From contig NZ_JAGHRA010000007.1 in the NCBI RefSeq assembly GCF_017744015.1, positions 124,001 through 188,000 on the forward strand: 64,000 nucleotides of DNA, in the 5' to 3' direction. Position 1 is the first letter of the stretch, and each line of letters begins with the position of its first letter. Made by a program: the position numbers and the translations under genes. The notes beneath the pieces are model-generated. The model had not been told where the DNA came from. It saw only the letters and a list, made by a program, of their open reading frames with translations, and searched no databases. Positions 57,083-64,000 of the stretch are shown here, piece by piece. The DNA is from Paracoccus sp. R12_2. GTDB taxonomy: Bacteria; Pseudomonadota; Alphaproteobacteria; Rhodobacterales; Rhodobacteraceae.

Positions 57083-57157
<75 letters not shown>

Positions 57158-57282: not shown

Positions 57283-57603
57283 TCAACCAGATTCGCTTGA
57301 AGGTAACTGCTGATGTCCGCCGCCGATCAGGGAAGACCGGTTGATGATGAATTCAAGGTATTCGGCATGGTCGTTGCCGTCAAAGCGTGACGAAAAGCGG
57401 GCGCGGGCGATGGCATCTGCCACGGCAACGGCGCCATGGTTGTGGGCGGGCAGTGGCGCCACGCAGTGCCGCTTGGATGTCAGATGAGAGCAGACAGGAG
57501 AACGAATATATAATTCAATGCCGTCAATTTCGGGATGCCTTGTCCGCGGGTCGACTTCCGTGATCGAAAAGGCAGAACCACTGCCTTCAATCAGCAATGG
57601 CAA
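57283..57603 (-). pseudogene. Coding fragment between tRNA-Thr and tniQ
   Basis: An open frame of about 106 codons without an ATG start (first codon TTG immediately after a stop). Its last 60 codons, reading HNHGAVAVADAIARARFSSR and then FDGNDHAEYLEFIINRSSLI, have strong GC third-position bias and look like the C-terminus of a real protein. The upstream part, from about 57470, is AT-richer and may be transposon end sequence. I do not recognise the family. It could be the tail of a gene broken by insertion or a small intact gene. Confidence 0.4.
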
Positions 57604-57720
57604 TAATCACAAAGATCTGCCGCTGGCGCAGATAATTTCGAAGCAACATCAACAACAGGCCAAACAGTCCGGCAGTTCGCCCTGCCCTTTTTCTCAGATA
57701 GCGTTGCCTCACCGCGCACA

Positions 57721-57761: not shown

Positions 57762-59555
57762 TTACGCAACGTCGGCGCGTCGAAAGATCATTGTGCTACG
57801 TAATCCCAACGGGAGCGGCAGCGCGCCATTGGAGATCTGATGGTTAAACTCGTCGTCAGCTGATCGACCCGACCGTTCGGCCAGCTCGTTCAGGGAGACA
57901 TATGCTGCCTGAAATTCCTCAAGCGATTTTCTGCAGCTGTACTTACCGCCTCTGATGCTGACGCTCTTACGCTTCGTAGGTGGCGCAAGAAAGCCAGCTT
58001 GCCGCAGGCAATAAACTGTTGGCCTGCTGATTTTTAGAAGCCGAGCAACGCTCCATGAGGATGCAACAGGCTCTTGGGCCCGGCGGTAGATACCGTTCAG
58101 AGAGCCTGGATGAACCCGAAATGCTCGGAAATTTTCAGCATGAGCGCCTTCGAAATATAATGGAATGCGATGCTCAAGGATGAACTCCGTGAGTGAGGCG
58201 ATAGTCACGCCACGCCGGCGCGCGGCGGTGGAGATATCAATGAGGTCCTTGGTAGCGTCGGCTGGCTTGGCAAAAGCCCTGAACCGTTCAAGAAATTCGT
58301 CCAGATCCTCCCTTCGGTAGTTGGTTGACCTTTTCCCATATTCCGATTGCTTTGGGATGAGCCCGTGGCTTGCCAGTCGCGCAAGCACCACCGTTTCAAC
58401 ACCAAGCAACGCCGCGGCTTCCTTCGCGCTCAGACGCATGCCGATCTCGGCGACGATGTCGTTGAGCAGGGCTGTTGGGATATAGCGCGTCAGCGTGTAA
58501 TACCTGTTCTGAGCATCCGCCTTGGCCATCCCCATAGTGGCAAGTTTGTGACCCAGCCTGTGGTGAGGAATGCCGAACACTTGCTTTGCCGTCGACAAAG
58601 AGTGAACCTGCTGCTCCGGACAAGGCTTTCCGAGAACAATTGACCCCCTCGTGACGGGAAAGTGTTCGAATATAAAATCCCGAACAACGTCGCGCACAAC
58701 GTCAAAATCCCGATCATCATCACGAGAGCGCAGCCAGTCGAAGAATACGCCGTAGTGCGACCGGTAGAGTTTTTCTCCCACCGGATGAGAATCCTGGATT
58801 TCTTTGAGCTTTTGACGCAACGCCTCCGGACCCCCGCGAAGGATGCTCAAGGCAGCGGTGCCGGCCGCTGCCCATTGGGCGTCCCGAAGTTCCGCTCGCT
58901 TTACCCTTGGTCCCAAGGTCAGAAGCGCGCCAAGCATCTCGCAAGTCTGCGCTGCAATATGAAACAGCAAGCGGTCCAGCCAGCTTTGACCGGGTCCGTT
59001 CTGGATTCGATCGGTCAAATACCTCTCCAGTTCCAGATCCTGAGGCACAGCTAGATCACCGGCTGTCGGTCTAAAGCCGTCGAGCATGGGTATGTGATCG
59101 AAGCAATCATTGCCGTTTTTTGGCTTGGGAACGGTGACGAGGTGGCACCCATGTGTCTGGCAGGTGCGGATCGCCGAGAGTTGCCAGACCCCATGATGGA
59201 CGATTTGTGTCGTGTTGCGCACCTCGCTAATACACATGGGGCAAATCCGAAGCGTTGTCCGTATAAACCCTGTGAATTTGATGCGTTCGTTACCGAGTCG
59301 AAACCAACCCGGTTCAATCAGGGAAGGTGTTGCCGCTTGCAGCGGGACGGGGTCGATATCGCCCAGAACTGCCAACCTTTGGATTTCGACCGGATCGCCG
59401 TTCACAAGCGCGAAGTAATCGATCCCAGTGTCCGAACAGAAGGTGATCATCCGCGGCACTCCATTCCGCCGCGCCAGGCGAGAGGCGAAGGATGTCGCGG
59501 ATTCCCCCACAATCGTGGGGACTGTCAACGGTAGCGGTTTTGTTGCCGTGAACAT
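57762..59555 (-). CDS. tniQ: TniQ/TnsD-like target-site selector with extended C-terminus
   Basis: 597-residue TniQ-family protein. The N-terminus has GESATSFASRLARRNGVPRM, matching the TniQ opening motif, and a zinc-finger with C105-x2-C108 (ICPMCISE) and C132-x2-H135 (TCQTHGCHL). The C-terminal half (about residues 318-550) contains three or four helix-turn-helix-like units, such as LSAKEAAALLGVETVVLARL and WSVARLLKISRPTVYCLRQ. Plain TniQ proteins are shorter; the length matches TnsD, which binds a fixed attachment site. The start at 59555 overlaps the tnsC stop by one base (TGATG). Placement behind tRNA-Thr suggests the tRNA region is the target. Confidence 0.88.
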   Translation of the reverse strand: MFTATKPLPLTVPTIVGESATSFASRLARRNGVPRMITFCSDTGIDYFALVNGDPVEIQRLAVLGDIDPVPLQAATPSLIEPGWFRLGNERIKFTGFIRTTLRICPMCISEVRNTTQIVHHGVWQLSAIRTCQTHGCHLVTVPKPKNGNDCFDHIPMLDGFRPTAGDLAVPQDLELERYLTDRIQNGPGQSWLDRLLFHIAAQTCEMLGALLTLGPRVKRAELRDAQWAAAGTAALSILRGGPEALRQKLKEIQDSHPVGEKLYRSHYGVFFDWLRSRDDDRDFDVVRDVVRDFIFEHFPVTRGSIVLGKPCPEQQVHSLSTAKQVFGIPHHRLGHKLATMGMAKADAQNRYYTLTRYIPTALLNDIVAEIGMRLSAKEAAALLGVETVVLARLASHGLIPKQSEYGKRSTNYRREDLDEFLERFRAFAKPADATKDLIDISTAARRRGVTIASLTEFILEHRIPLYFEGAHAENFRAFRVHPGSLNGIYRRAQEPVASSWSVARLLKISRPTVYCLRQAGFLAPPTKRKSVSIRGGKYSCRKSLEEFQAAYVSLNELAERSGRSADDEFNHQISNGALPLPLGLRSTMIFRRADVA

Positions 59556-60505
59556 CAGCGTTTCTCCCGTGAGAAGACCTGCCGCGCATCGATCCGGTAA
59601 AAATCGGGTATGACGAACGGGTTGAACGCGTCGTCGCAAGCGGTCCGCAGGTGATAGGCGCGGGCAAAATCCTGGGATGCGAGCTGGCGGGCTCCTCTGA
59701 GAAACGCCTGTTCGATGGCTGCCAGCGTCAGCTCGATAACCAAGCCAAACTGATTGGCTGCCGCGTGGATCAGCCGTTCGCCATGTGCCAGCTCGACAAT
59801 GTCAGGGGCGGGCGTCAGTCCTGCGCGCTTGCAGTAGTTTTCCACGAGATCCAGCACGTCATTGCCATGCGCAACCGGTGACAAGCTGTTAAAATGCACC
59901 GTCTGCATCCGCCGCGCCAGTTGCGGGTCATGGTTCAGGATGTCCTCCAGCTCCGGCGTGCCTGACAGAATGATCCCGACCGGCCATTCGGGGTCCGTCA
60001 TCAGCGTTTTCAGCATCGAGGCCACGGCATTCAATTCGTGTTTCGTGCCCCTTGATGCCAGATCCTGAGCCTCGTCCAGATGAACGAACAGCACCTGCCG
60101 CTCCTTCAGGTGATGCCGGACCAGGTCCCAGATGTACCAGGCCTGCCGTTCTGAGCTGATCTGAAAGCCCAAGGCGCGCAGCAAGGTGTAGCCGACAAAT
60201 TTCAGCGTTGCCGGCGATGGCACGCGAAGGCTGATGATCGGCGCATCCCAATGCCGTGTCGTCGACAGCAGTTGGCCAACGCCGGCGATGAGATGAACCA
60301 TCGCCGCGCTCTTTCCAGTGCCCGACGGACCGGACAATGCCAGCCCGTGGGCTTCGCTCGTGCGGCCGGCGTCGAGATCGGAAAGGCGCTTTGCGAGGAG
60401 CATGGCGAGGGACGCCTCCAGCGGCAAGAAGCGCTCGTGGTGAACAAAATGGTCCCGAAGCGCGGCTACTTTCTCGGCGGCTTTGCGAATATTGTCATTG
60501 CTCAT
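59555..60505 (-). CDS. tnsC: TnsC/TniB-like AAA+ transposition regulator
   Basis: 316-residue AAA+ ATPase connecting target selection to the transposase. Walker A is GPSGTGKS at residues 59-66, and Walker B is VLFVHLDEAQDL with D144 and E145. SGTPELEDILNHDPQLARRMQ is the sensor and arginine region typical of TniB/TnsC. The start at 60505 (MSNDNIRKAA) follows a GGAGATT ribosome site and overlaps tnsB by 11 bases. It is much shorter than Tn7 TnsC (555 residues) and near TniB in size. Confidence 0.9.
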   Translation of the reverse strand: MSNDNIRKAAEKVAALRDHFVHHERFLPLEASLAMLLAKRLSDLDAGRTSEAHGLALSGPSGTGKSAAMVHLIAGVGQLLSTTRHWDAPIISLRVPSPATLKFVGYTLLRALGFQISSERQAWYIWDLVRHHLKERQVLFVHLDEAQDLASRGTKHELNAVASMLKTLMTDPEWPVGIILSGTPELEDILNHDPQLARRMQTVHFNSLSPVAHGNDVLDLVENYCKRAGLTPAPDIVELAHGERLIHAAANQFGLVIELTLAAIEQAFLRGARQLASQDFARAYHLRTACDDAFNPFVIPDFYRIDARQVFSREKR

Positions 60506-62630
60506 CGTCAAATCTCCAGCGGTTGCGGCGTTCACGCGCGGGCGGTGATTGGTCATGGTGGTCAGTGGCGGGATCGGAAGGCTTACCTGCGCGCGGCACG
60601 ATCTGGATACCGTCAGAGAGGGGATCCGAAGAGGGGCGGGCATGCCCGAGGCGCTCGGCATCGGAGCGCAAGGGGAAGTGCAGTGCGGATTGATTGCGCT
60701 CCACGTCCAGGTTGGTGACGTGGAACGGCGTCAGTTCACGCAGCGCAAAAGCACGCCGGTTGATTTCCGAAATCCGCTCGATCGCCCGGCGGACCATCGG
60801 CGCATCCAGCTCGGCATTCCGCCGGTGCTTGAGGCGGAGAGTCCGGGTGGCTTCCTGAAGCTCGTCATAGCTGACATCGTCGAAGCCGCTCTGATTGGCC
60901 ATGGCGGGATGCCATGTTGCGCCCACCTTGACGGCGATCCAGCCCATATCCCGCAGATCGGCGCGGATTTCGACATTGCGTTCCGGCGCGTGCAGGAACG
61001 CCTCGCGCAGCGCCTCGCAGCTATAGGTCAGGCCCGCAAACAGAACCCCGTCGCCGCGCAACGTCCGCTGCAATGGCCTGCCGAAAGCTTTGCGCAAGGC
61101 AAGGCCATCGGGAATCGGTGGTGTGCCGTGCTCGGCGACCAGGCGCGACCACGCCTGGTTGGGTGTTTCCCCACCGAGTGATCCGTGGGGCTCATGGTGG
61201 TAAATATCGACGACATAGGTCAGCAGAATCCTGATCAGGTCGTCGTCGCAGAGGCACGCCAGCTGCTCCGATGGATAATCGCCGCGCTCAATGGTGTCAA
61301 AGAAGGTGCGGCCGACCAGCAGCGGCATGAGCCGGTGCCCATAGGTGCGGAAGAAGGTTTCAATGTGACCACGAAGCCAAGGCAGGCCAGCAGGCGGAAG
61401 ATGCGCGGTGATCCCGAGCGACGACACGGTGCCTTGAAACTCATCGGAGACGAAGGCACCGCCTTGGTCCGTCACCAATGTCGCGATGCCACCACGATGG
61501 TGCCACGTGCTTTCGCATCCTGCCGCCTGTGCGATCAACGTCTTGTCGATGAAAATATCCCGCAGTGCCTTGATCGCATCGCCCGCGTTTGGTGTCTCGG
61601 CCAGACGCATGGAGAGAATACACCGGGTCGCACAATCGATGGCGACGTAGAGCCATCGGCGCCCAGCCTCGAACCGCTCCTGTCTCTCGGGCGGAAGATG
61701 ATCCCAGATGCCGGTCAAGGTCAGCAGCGAGATCACATCGAGCCGGTTTTCATCCATTTCGACACGTTCCAGCGGCTGCTGGACATCGGTGCCGTTCTCG
61801 TAAAGCGTGAACTTCGCATTTGCTGCCGCCGTACCATAGCGCTTGGCATGCACGTAGTAAGGGTCGGCCAGTGCCAGACGGCGCCTGACGCTTTGCCGCG
61901 ACGGAACCACCAGCTCGGGCAGACCCGCGTCAACCCTGCGTCTATTTTCCTGGCGGAAGAGTTCCAGCGTGTCGGCAACCGCTTGGGATTTGCTGGGGCG
62001 CTGCGTGTCGGCATAGAGTTCGATGACCTGATTCATCAGGGCTTCGGACCGATGGCTCCAACGCGGTGCGCGATTGCCGCAGCGATGGGTTTCAGGGATC
62101 AGCGCCACCGCAGAATACCCAGCCCGTTCATAGCACCGCACCCATTCGAAAGCGGTGCGGCTGCCGGGAAGCTTGCGGGTGATGATGTCGGCGCCCGGCC
62201 GGACGACCCTACCGCTGGCCTGCCCCTCACCGACGCGGCGGTGGATTTCGGCAGCCAACCTCTCCTTTTCCTTCAGGTATCCTTCGTGCGTGCGGTTGAT
62301 GAAGCCGAGCGATTCCAGATGCAGAAACGCATCGCAGAATGCCCTGCGCCAGATCACCAGGCGCCGAGCCACCTCACGCAACTCGTTGATGACATCGACG
62401 GGTTTGCGGCCGCGAATGTCCTGGGTTGTGCGATCGAAATAGCCGGCGATGTAGGTCGTATCCGGGCGGCGCAGCAGGGCAGTCAGTTCTTCATGCGAAT
62501 GACGTTCGGTGATTCCGGGTTGTCCGAGGCGCTCGAACAGCCCGCCCTTGTCGTCGATTTCCAGCGGGCGCATCGCAACGCCCCCTGTGGTGATCAGATC
62601 GGATTTGGAGAAGCGAAACCGGATCGTCAT
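60495..62630 (-). CDS. tnsB: TnsB/TniA-like DDE transposase
   Basis: 711-residue integrase-fold transposase of the TnsB/TniA/MuA group. The catalytic triad is D293 (RVEMDENRLDV), D388 (TLVTDQGGAF) and E424 (LRGHIETFF), spacing D-35-E. N-terminal helix-turn-helix regions for end binding precede the core, and a Mu-type C-terminal beta-barrel follows from about residue 530 (WIAVKVGATWHP). The C-terminal tail, rich in basic and polar residues (ARERRNRWRFDDEQ), is the part that contacts TnsC in relatives. The ATG overlaps the tnsA stop by four bases. Confidence 0.93.
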   Translation of the reverse strand: MTIRFRFSKSDLITTGGVAMRPLEIDDKGGLFERLGQPGITERHSHEELTALLRRPDTTYIAGYFDRTTQDIRGRKPVDVINELREVARRLVIWRRAFCDAFLHLESLGFINRTHEGYLKEKERLAAEIHRRVGEGQASGRVVRPGADIITRKLPGSRTAFEWVRCYERAGYSAVALIPETHRCGNRAPRWSHRSEALMNQVIELYADTQRPSKSQAVADTLELFRQENRRRVDAGLPELVVPSRQSVRRRLALADPYYVHAKRYGTAAANAKFTLYENGTDVQQPLERVEMDENRLDVISLLTLTGIWDHLPPERQERFEAGRRWLYVAIDCATRCILSMRLAETPNAGDAIKALRDIFIDKTLIAQAAGCESTWHHRGGIATLVTDQGGAFVSDEFQGTVSSLGITAHLPPAGLPWLRGHIETFFRTYGHRLMPLLVGRTFFDTIERGDYPSEQLACLCDDDLIRILLTYVVDIYHHEPHGSLGGETPNQAWSRLVAEHGTPPIPDGLALRKAFGRPLQRTLRGDGVLFAGLTYSCEALREAFLHAPERNVEIRADLRDMGWIAVKVGATWHPAMANQSGFDDVSYDELQEATRTLRLKHRRNAELDAPMVRRAIERISEINRRAFALRELTPFHVTNLDVERNQSALHFPLRSDAERLGHARPSSDPLSDGIQIVPRAGKPSDPATDHHDQSPPARERRNRWRFDDEQ

Positions 62631-63127
62631 GTCGCCACCTCCGTCAAAGCGGGACGGGTCCGGGCAAGTTGGCGCGCGGCCGCCGCAGCGGATGCGCGGT
62701 CAAGATGCCAATCCGTGACCAGCATCACCCGGTCGGCAAATTGCTTCGGTGTCGCGGCGGCGACCCTCTCCAGTTCGGAAAGGAAGTTCCGCGCGATGAC
62801 CCTTTGCATCGGCTTTACGGCCACAGCGATGCGTTCGCCGCCCGTCATTGTCACAAGGAAATCGAAGATATGCTTGGCCGGGCGGCCATCACGACCAACA
62901 TAATGCACGACGGGCGGCTGGTCCCAGATGTGCTGGATATCGTCACGCACCAAGGTCAGGCACAGGAAGGCATATTCCAGCGCGCTTTCGAACTGCAGGA
63001 TGCGCGGCCGGGGAAAGCCTGGCAGCTTGGCGACCATGGCGCCCCGGAGACTGGCCCGGGATCGGCGCGTTATCTTGCGGGTCGCGTGGCTCGGTTCCGG
63101 CCCGCGATAGATCAGGTTCTGGTTCAT
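62627..63127 (-). CDS. tnsA: TnsA-like endonuclease, short form
   Basis: 166-residue TnsA-type endonuclease that should cut the non-transferred 5' strands, allowing cut-and-paste transposition. The restriction-endonuclease fold residues are E47 in QFESALEYAF, D89 in KHIFDFLV and K105 in IAVAVKP. The residue two before the lysine, usually Q or E, is alanine here. The protein is far shorter than Tn7 TnsA (273 residues) and lacks most of the C-terminal TnsC-binding domain. Its ATG is the outer end of the tns operon. Confidence 0.85.
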   Translation of the reverse strand: MNQNLIYRGPEPSHATRKITRRSRASLRGAMVAKLPGFPRPRILQFESALEYAFLCLTLVRDDIQHIWDQPPVVHYVGRDGRPAKHIFDFLVTMTGGERIAVAVKPMQRVIARNFLSELERVAAATPKQFADRVMLVTDWHLDRASAAAAARQLARTRPALTEVAT

Positions 63128-63330
63128 GATGTTCGGAGCGCGCCTGCCACCGCCTCATGGGCGATGACGGCGCGATCTCCCCCTTTGGGATGTGTTGAAC
63201 AGCCCTGCCGGTCACCGCAACCGGCAGGTTGACTTTTTGTTCGACTCGGGGGATGAATGAGGTGTCGGCATCAATCGACATCCAAGAGGGGCACCTGTTC
63301 CAGCAGGGGTCCCTTTTTCATTTCCCGTTG
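63128..63330. other. Non-coding gap between tnsA and the Ner-like gene
   Basis: About 200 bases without a supported gene. It should hold the tns operon promoter (reading leftward) and the 3' end of the Ner-like gene. I find no clear TnsB-site repeats or terminator in it. Confidence 0.5.
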
Positions 63331-63573
63331 TCAGCTATGTCCGGTCTTCATGCCCTCCTCTGCCTCATAACGATCGGGAAAGAGCTGCTCCGGCGTGGTC
63401 CCAAGCTGGTCCGCGATCTCGCGCTGCACGCGGTGCGACCGACGGTAGCCTTGGCTGACCACGGTCACGCTGCTTTGCGAGATGCCGAGCGACCGGGCGA
63501 TCTTTGCCATCGACGAACCTACCAGCCGAAGCCGGCATTTGAGGATTTCATGGCCCTCGAGATCGACCTTCAT
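63331..63573 (-). CDS. Ner-like helix-turn-helix regulator
   Basis: 80-residue DNA-binding protein of the Ner/Nlp type, related to the Mu Ner repressor. The core is MAKIARSLGISQSSVTVVSQ and then GYRRSHRVQREIADQLGTTP, followed by EQLFPDRY, a Ner hallmark. The ATG at 63573 is preferred over TTG codons upstream. It diverges from the cargo gene at 63813 and is 203 bases upstream of tnsA on the same strand, so it probably represses the tns genes, itself, or both. Confidence 0.8.
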   Translation of the reverse strand: MKVDLEGHEILKCRLRLVGSSMAKIARSLGISQSSVTVVSQGYRRSHRVQREIADQLGTTPEQLFPDRYEAEEGMKTGHS

Positions 63574-63591
63574 GGGATGTAAGTCCTTGGT

Positions 63592-63683
63592 CTGCAGAGT
63601 TGCGCTGCGAATCAGAGATTCGGAAAATCGCCGTCTATGCAACAACTTCTGCGTTGGCTCTCATTTTTGCAGAGTTTGACTGG
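63592..63683. repeat. Pair of direct repeats upstream of the Ner-like gene
   Basis: CTGCAGAGTTGCGCTG (63592-63607) and TTGCAGAGTTTGACTG (63668-63683) match at 12 of 16 positions, one site close to the Ner start and one further out. Candidate operators for the Ner-like protein. Confidence 0.4.
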
Positions 63684-63812: not shown

Positions 63813-64000
63813 ATGATTGGGTTGTCTGAAGAAGAAGTAACCGCTCTCGAGGCCGCCAAAGCGTCTGCGCTCGCCGCTCAGATTATTATTGATCGGCTGG
63901 TGAGAAAAAGCCGCGATGCTCGCCTGACCGAGATCCTTGCAAGAAAAACGGCCCGGCCTGCTGCCAAGCCGATGGTATTGCTGGAAAAGACCCCGGAACG
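63813..64000 (+). CDS. Start of an unrecognised cargo gene, cut by window edge
   Basis: An open frame from ATG 63813 (GGAG ribosome site ten bases upstream) running off the window after 62 codons. The visible product starts MIGLSEEEVTALEAAKASAL and is a predicted helix rich in Ala, Glu, Arg and Lys, with no domain I recognise. It diverges from the Ner-like regulator and is the first gene on the cargo side of the element. Confidence 0.6.
   Translation, partial: MIGLSEEEVTALEAAKASALAAQIIIDRLVRKSRDARLTEILARKTARPAAKPMVLLEKTPE

Follow-up and report, generated by a model that had tools for sequence, protein, structure and literature searches.

The tniQ gene of the window (the whole 64,000-nucleotide stretch of Paracoccus sp. 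R12_2 DNA that was analysed) probably encodes the target selector with which a Tn7-like transposon homes to the gene for tRNA-Pro(CGG), wherein a string of helix-turn-helix (HTH) units in the tail of the protein would read the tRNA gene. We assign this reading a probability of about 0.78. The element lands nine bases past tRNA-Pro, and therefore the HTH string probably reads that tRNA gene. A preliminary description of this DNA had proposed a tRNA gene as the target and had named tRNA-Thr. The mapped ends and the target duplications bear out a tRNA gene, which is well supported as the target of the element, and the gene concerned is that for tRNA-Pro(CGG) instead of tRNA-Thr.

In the proposed mechanism, the N-terminal TniQ domain would contact TnsC, as published for the TniQ family, and five winged HTH units of the MerR/BldC type would lie head to tail along the tRNA-Pro(CGG) gene, each reading about 9 bp. 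TnsC would bridge TniQ to TnsA and TnsB, which would join the element to DNA 9 bp past the tRNA 3' end, make a 5-bp duplication and place the tnsA-side end (the R-end) next to the tRNA.

The transposition operon and the tail of TniQ

The genes in this part of the window, and the parts of TniQ, are as follows.

57762-59555, minus strand: tniQ, 597 aa, probable target selector with a TniQ domain and five predicted winged HTH units (ORF, Pfam, AlphaFold2)
59139-59531, minus strand: TniQ domain, residues 9-139 (Pfam E 6.7e-16)
58440-58604, minus strand: predicted HTH unit 1, residues about 318-372, low model confidence (AlphaFold2, profile comparison)
58272-58436, minus strand: predicted HTH unit 2, residues about 374-428, best fold match BldC (Pfam HTH_17, fold search)
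58086-58259, minus strand: predicted HTH unit 3, residues about 433-490 (AlphaFold2, profile comparison)
57903-58067, minus strand: predicted HTH unit 4, residues about 497-551 (Pfam HTH_17, AlphaFold2, profile comparison)
57765-57902, minus strand: predicted HTH unit 5, residues about 552-597 (AlphaFold2; weak profile link, to unit 2 only)
59555-60661, minus strand: tnsC, a tniB-type AAA ATPase whose true start is probably inside the ORF (Pfam)
60495-62630, minus strand: tnsB, DDE transposase with rve and Mu-transpos_C (Pfam)
62627-63127, minus strand: tnsA-like endonuclease (Pfam E 0.00044, below the curated cut-off; weak NCBIfam match)
63331-63573, minus strand: Ner/SfsB-like HTH regulator, HTH_35 (Pfam)
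63813-64000, plus strand: start of the gene for a 241-aa HTH protein, divergent from the Ner gene and continuing to 64538 on the contig

Judged by its predicted gene content, the element is a Tn7-like transposon with a Ner-like regulator, a TnsA-like protein, TnsB, TnsC and TniQ. Pfam identifies TnsB, TnsC and TniQ in one operon, and the gene order is the same in relatives with complete operons. For TnsB, the Mu-transpos_C match lies above the Pfam cut-off (23 of 21.7 bits) and the rve match below it (28.3 of 32.6 bits). The region of the regulator gene (63103-63603) is 76-81% identical in DNA to loci L056 and L061, where TnsA is 44-49% identical, and this suggests exchange of a regulator module.

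The N-terminal TniQ zinc-finger part named in the preliminary description is present. The domain (PF06527) scores 59.7 bits against a curated Pfam cut-off of 27, and four residues (C105, C108, C132 and H135), which we take by analogy to be zinc ligands, are invariant across 22 aligned TniQ sequences, wherein the C..C..C..H pattern is kept. These aligned sequences, the window's protein included, all carry the TniQ domain (22/22) and mostly HTH_17 (17/22). There are relatives of the 597-aa protein in 60 of the 125 genomes of the genus, its own included (E<=1e-10). In a profile of the 22 sequences, conservation is nowhere high enough for scanning a sequence collection; viral contigs scanned with a closer TniQ alignment yielded 145 matching stretches and 0 relatives. 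A second TniQ in the source genome, on contig C9 (L002), is short (312 aa) and is without an HTH tail.

The tail appears to consist of five predicted winged HTH units of the MerR/HTH_17 (BldC/excisionase) type, two of which are recognized by Pfam and all five by structure prediction. Pfam and AlphaFold2 agree with the coordinates given earlier for HTH segments (near residues 318-345, 375-425, 440-485 and 500-550). The tandem array of three or four units described at that time stands as an array, and its number is revised to a predicted five, the unit at about 552-597 having been missed. With the whole protein as query, Pfam finds HTH_17 at residues 375-424 in two stretches (E 7.8e-13). When the tail is cut into five segments, HTH_17 is found in the second (1.1e-07) and the fourth (5.6e-06), both of which reach the Pfam cut-off, and segments 1, 3 and 5 match no Pfam family at E<=1.

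Structure prediction of the C-terminal half had been suggested as a check on the array, and it returned five consecutive helix-helix-wing units. The same five are predicted in both AlphaFold2 runs, one with the whole protein (6 sequences aligned) and one with residues 300-597 (4 sequences aligned). The predicted helix pairs lie at residues 320-327/331-340, 377-384/388-396, 441-447/452-461, 500-507/511-519 and 555-562/566-575, and successive units start about every 55-63 residues. Ten-residue means of pLDDT are 84-96 for unit 5 in both runs, mostly 65-92 with a dip to 56-57 for units 3-4, and 59-88 (whole-protein run) or 48-82 (tail run) for unit 2. Unit 1 and the N-terminal half of TniQ are poorly modelled, and overall model confidence is low (mean pLDDT 56.7 and 70.5; pTM 0.33 and 0.42).

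Profile comparison based on the 22-sequence alignment links units 2 and 4 strongly, at 95.8%, and gives moderate links for 2 and 3 (75.6), 1 and 2 (69.9), 3 and 4 (62.6) and 2 and 5 (52.9). The remaining links are weak (1-4, 17.3; 1-3, 14.7; 3-5, 4.0; 4-5, 1.9; 1-5, 0.7). Units score no higher than 5.0 against control segments, and among the controls only pairs designed to overlap exceed this value. With an 11-sequence alignment, only the link between units 2 and 4 is clear (79.9).

Unit 2 resembles BldC with a VIA Z of 7.6, where values below 8 can mean a common arrangement, an rmsd of 1.8 over 51 residues and a Foldseek probability of 0.99. Further matches among MerR-type winged HTH folds are Pukovnik Xis, RacA, SoxR, HiNmlR and RdfS (Foldseek, VIA-align); the VIA matches fall mainly on unit 2, and the absence of TnsD structures among them is no proof. 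Foldseek gave 0 matches at E<=0.001, and the top matches of the full model outside the HTH units are noise. A similar small domain is present in one I-F3 TniQ chain, 7u5e, at residues 334-391 (Z 4.8). Perhaps, therefore, the early units are part of a core common to TniQ proteins and the later units make up the extension.

There is no match to PF15978 (TnsD) in the 597-aa protein at E<=1 and none in the source genome at E<=0.001. The comparison with TnsD that had also been suggested earlier was made with a profile of six PF15978-matching proteins; only TniQ residues 14-160 align and the tail is without detected similarity, in what is a weak test for a fast-evolving tail. Among seven relatives with 41-65% overall identity to the window's TniQ, the tail diverges faster than the N-terminus, with 25-33% identity in unit 2 (residues 371-430) versus 60-99% in residues 1-95. 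Such rapid evolution of the tail would be expected if it determines specificity.

Two stretches align only to the C-terminal HTH part, L049:11992-12885 to residues 299-596 and L060:17516-17779 to residues 509-596, and they appear to be remnants or stand-alone TniQ tails. The tniQ gene is split, frameshifted or truncated in L064, L051, L043 and L065, in elements that are still at the tRNA site.

Element ends, target duplications and tRNA landing sites

The tniQ-side end of the element and the sequences next to it are as follows.

57598-57621, plus strand: L-end (tniQ-side end), TGGCAATAATCACAAAGATCTGCC (conserved terminus in relatives)
57593-57597, no strand assigned: 5-bp target duplication, AGCAA on the plus and TTGCT on the minus strand (the same 5 bp precede the R-end on contig C6)
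57555-57592, minus strand: degenerate R-end copy, 4-5 bp from the L-end (end-motif match)

Similarity to three relatives (G093, G014 and G053) ends at 57596-57598, and the L-end, written above from outside to inside, lies about 165 bp past the tniQ stop. It is likewise found about 165 bp past tniQ in L035, L036, L038, L042, L044, L048, L049, L123 and L124 and further out in L046, L047 and L051, and it was not found in L043, L045 and L050. A second end type, the R-end, has a consensus near TGATAAGAGGCAGATAGTTCTGCCTTTTTGATCA and occurs 5 bp beyond the L-end in several relatives as well as directly downstream of tRNA genes. The degenerate copy at 57555-57592 is likely a remnant of an older stacked element.

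In the source genome, the R-end pattern has one match at up to 2 mismatches, and the L-end pattern has one match with 0 mismatches and two more with 2 mismatches (reversed control, 1). There is a single tRNA-Pro(CGG) gene, on contig C6, and the only other match is tRNA-Pro(TGG). The R-end on C6 starts 9 bp after tRNA-Pro(CGG) and is preceded by TTGCT. Because contig C6 ends 4.26 kb past the R-end and contig C49 ends 8.0 kb past the L-end, the element most likely spans the two contigs; its continuity across C6 and C49 rests on the common 5 bp and on the uniqueness of the ends. The six elements for which both ends were located measure 13.3-36.7 kb. Like the HTH units, the following are read from sequence: the two ends, the orientation of the element, which tRNA it adjoins, the 9-bp spacing and the 5-bp duplications.

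Exactly shared flanks of 5 bp are found in five of ten neighbouring R/L pairs, whose ends have the form TG...CA. These duplications are TTGCT in the source genome, CCCGG in G014, CCCGA in G048, ATTCT in G118 and CCGAG in G038. The 5-bp flanks are unequal in the other five pairs (G054, G010, two in G069, and Tritonibacter). The outermost R/L pair of G069 does share its 5 bp (ATTCC), and Tritonibacter has the inner junction of G069 (CCCTG) too, which would fit a joint move of two stacked elements. Stacked elements, with exactly 5 bp between an L-end and the next R-end, are present at 7 junctions in 6 loci (L041, L044, L047, L051 and L123, and twice in L049). Thus, each insertion seems to rebuild the tRNA-adjacent landing site. 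Tn7 also makes a 5-bp target duplication.

A combined pattern of the tRNA-Pro 3' end and the R-end, for which the reversed-pattern control gave 0 matches, places an R-end after tRNA-Pro(CGG) in 18 of the 125 genomes of the genus; the spacing is 9 bp in all but one of them, where it is 10 bp. Three further R-ends at tRNA-Pro(CGG), in G073, G118 and G036, were missed by the exact pattern. When the R-end was searched without the tRNA in the query, it was found at 56 places in 40 of the 125 genomes with up to two mismatches, and the reversed control had no match among the matches listed. Thirty of these 56 loci were examined, and in 18 a tRNA 3' end lies 8-10 bp upstream: 12 are Pro(CGG), 4 Ala(GGC), 1 Arg(CCG) and 1 Pro(TGG). 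No tRNA is present in the stretch examined at the remaining 12, some of which are L-ends or stacked ends. We estimate roughly that a random site would lie 8-10 bp past a tRNA about 2 times in 100,000. The end of the element is thus at a fixed short distance past an intact tRNA gene, which is a feature of tRNA-homing Tn7-like elements.

On the tnsA side, eleven relatives were followed further outward, and an R-end is located 9 bp past tRNA-Pro(CGG) in seven of them (G014, G048, G054, G041, G118, G010 and G038). Two have tRNA-Pro(CGG) without a match to the R-end matrix (G063, G057), and in two neither was found (G053, G093). The R-end is also at tRNA-Pro(CGG) in L043, L040/L065 and L039 and at tRNA-Ala(GGC) in L049 and L123; the TniQ of a sister element at tRNA-Ala(GGC) is 46% identical. 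There are 17 elements in the genus whose TniQ is at least 41% alike, counting the window's own and leaving out the tail-only fragments of G063 and G043, and these loci were followed unequally far. Ten have the R-end at tRNA-Pro(CGG) and one at tRNA-Ala, and six show no R-end at a tRNA in the stretches examined (G053, G093, G119, G002, G033, G023). G002 does have an R-end at tRNA-Pro(CGG), on another contig.

Among more distant TniQ relatives (24-33% identity), seven loci carry a tRNA gene and, about 9-13 bp past it, an end-like sequence that starts with TG, as judged by eye; the tRNA is tRNA-Pro(CGG) in four, tRNA-Arg(ACG) in two and tRNA-Lys(TTT) in one. In L058 and L069, it lies on the tniQ side. 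No such sequence was seen by eye at Arg(TCT) in L054 or at Ser in L043.

Proposed reading of the tRNA gene

The tRNA-Thr gene named in the preliminary description (57083-57157) has its 3' end facing tniQ, 440 bp from the element end, and could on this ground be proposed as the gene read by TniQ. However, no end motif was found at its 3' end, the end that faces it is the L-end and not the tRNA-proximal R-end, and 0 of the 18 tRNA-linked R-ends among the 30 loci are at tRNA-Thr. Moreover, tRNA-Thr is present only in the window's own locus among 38 loci scanned, most of them within just 1.5 kb on each side of the match. The 440 bp between it and the L-end match the compared sequences at E<0.01 only through the degenerate end motif. 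It is the wrong gene because it lies 440 bp outside the far end, and the mapped ends rule it out as the homing site; we consider its reading by TniQ very improbable.

A tyrosine recombinase is encoded on the R side of the element, and it could be invoked in two ways. This FimB-like protein (L003:2793-3431, minus strand, on the continuation of the window's contig) has an inverted-repeat site upstream (ACTCTTTACA...TGTAAAGAGT). Its homologues, at 79-88%, are found in 7 other genomes of the 125 (G118, G014, G057, G048, G054, G041 and G063), where each adjoins an element of the window's kind or of a more distant related kind. Perhaps the recombinase places the element at the tRNA as integrases do, since tRNA genes are common integrase sites (PMC11406308, in part) and the recombinase with its site is beside such elements in 8 genomes, the source genome included. 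The 5-bp duplications, the TG...CA ends and the position of the element end 9 bp past an intact tRNA speak against such placement, and the elements of G010 and G038 occupy the same tRNA position with no such recombinase found. There is thus little room for this explanation. The other way would be that the 3' end of the recombinase gene is itself the target, given that the gene is 79-88% conserved beside elements whose TniQ proteins are 26-84% like the window's. However, the R-end is 3-28 kb beyond the recombinase, at tRNA-Pro(CGG), in G014, G048, G054, G041 and G118. The recombinase is therefore inside the element, and R-ends mapped beyond it rule out its gene as the target, so that the chance of this explanation is negligible.

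A less remote, though still unlikely, explanation is that the tRNA is read by another factor, either the 241-aa HTH protein or a host protein, and that the TniQ string only bends DNA or holds TnsC. A divergent gene for an HTH protein adjoins the Ner gene in the window and in relatives, and the winged HTH protein RdfS is described as binding without an apparent consensus motif (PMC11963761, in part). Yet homologues of the 241-aa protein were found in only 7 of 36 loci of the genus (L044, L047, L048, L056, L061, L064 and L066; tblastn E<=1e-5, a search that very divergent HTH proteins may escape), with one more further out in G054. In known elements, moreover, direct targeting is attributed to the long tail of TniQ/TnsD (PMC10293859, in part).

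Reading of the tRNA gene by TniQ is consistent with the pattern of conservation at the landing sites. The 77-bp tRNA-Pro(CGG) gene is identical at 18 sites, and variation is found in the spacer and in the 30 bp upstream, with a mean majority base of 0.64 in each. Thus, the selector should read inside the tRNA, with the caveat that tRNA genes are conserved for their own reasons too. Protomers of BldC line up head to tail on direct repeats of 9 bp and bend the DNA (PMC5859096, in part), and five units could accordingly cover about 45 bp of the 77-bp tRNA. What we infer is DNA binding by the HTH units, the tRNA gene as the DNA bound, and 9 bp for each unit.

A more specific and distinctly tentative possibility is that the five units act together as a modular, covalently joined reader of tRNA genes, with about 9 bp for each unit in a fixed order, and that sister elements were retargeted (to Ala, perhaps to Arg and Lys) by changes in the string. 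If so, the modular reader would be a natural, possibly decodable, protein-guided targeting array unlike TnsD, and it could direct transposition. The Ala-homing TniQ proteins form a separate lineage that differs throughout from the Pro-homing ones. Identity between the Pro and Ala groups versus identity within the distant Pro group is 58/77% for residues 1-95, 40/53% for unit 4 and 52/53% for unit 5, and in this comparison specificity is not assignable to particular HTH units.

Relation to known elements

Homing to tRNA genes guided by TniQ/TnsD (PMC10293859 and PMC11406308, in part) and tails with multiple HTH domains (PMC10293859, in part) have been published. The closest descriptions concern CAST I-D (CyCAST, tRNA-Leu) and CAST I-B2 (PmcCAST, tRNA-Val), which also home downstream of a tRNA under protein guidance (PMC10293859 and PMC11406308, in part) and have a long TniQ/TnsD with multiple HTH domains (PMC10293859, in part). 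CyCAST inserts around 30-33 nt past the tRNA end (PMC10293859, in part), whereas the distance here is 9 in 17 of 18 cases and 10 in the other. The two CAST types have a fused TnsA-TnsB (PMC11406308, in part), whereas the TnsA-like protein and TnsB are separate here. The present elements thus differ from those published in the 9-bp spacing, in a predicted MerR/BldC-type tail without detected TnsD similarity and in separate TnsA-like and TnsB proteins, and also in their alphaproteobacterial host group and in the use of at least two tRNA genes among sister elements. We found no paper on these Tn7-like elements of Paracoccus, Rhodobacter or Rhodobacterales in a search that left out most subscription journals.

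The tail units share their predicted MerR-like winged HTH fold with BldC, Xis and RdfS. BldC acts on direct repeats head to tail (PMC5859096, in part) and RdfS oligomerises (PMC11963761, in part). These are separate small oligomerising proteins, whereas five predicted units are covalently linked behind a TniQ domain here. Tn5053-type elements likewise combine a TniB-type TnsC and TniQ in one operon, but they are described as being without TnsA and as targeting resolution sites (PMC11406308, in part), whereas there is a TnsA-like gene and a tRNA site here.

These elements constitute a compact transposon family whose selectors differ in sequence and partly in the tRNA gene, while the spacing is nearly constant. 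Site reading by TniQ/TnsD tails thereby becomes open to tests in which domains are swapped between natural relatives. For a laboratory homing assay, the necessary information is given by the ends as mapped, the duplications and the 9-bp rule.

Tn7 TnsD, which acts at attTn7 (glmS), is alike in having an N-terminal TniQ domain and a DNA-reading tail, putative here, and in directing insertion next to a conserved gene situated beyond the right end (PMC11406308, in part). It is unlike the present protein in that the target here is a tRNA gene and in that the tail has no PF15978 match, with alignment confined to residues 14-160. The layout also differs from that of Tn7, since in G010 there are 18 kb between the R-end and the Ner gene, and the tns genes are thus near the L-end. 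After the R-end on contig C6, the stretch L163:10695-14266 carries apparent cargo, namely an Lrp-like regulator, a PLP-dependent lyase-like protein and a LysR-like regulator, all named by eye.
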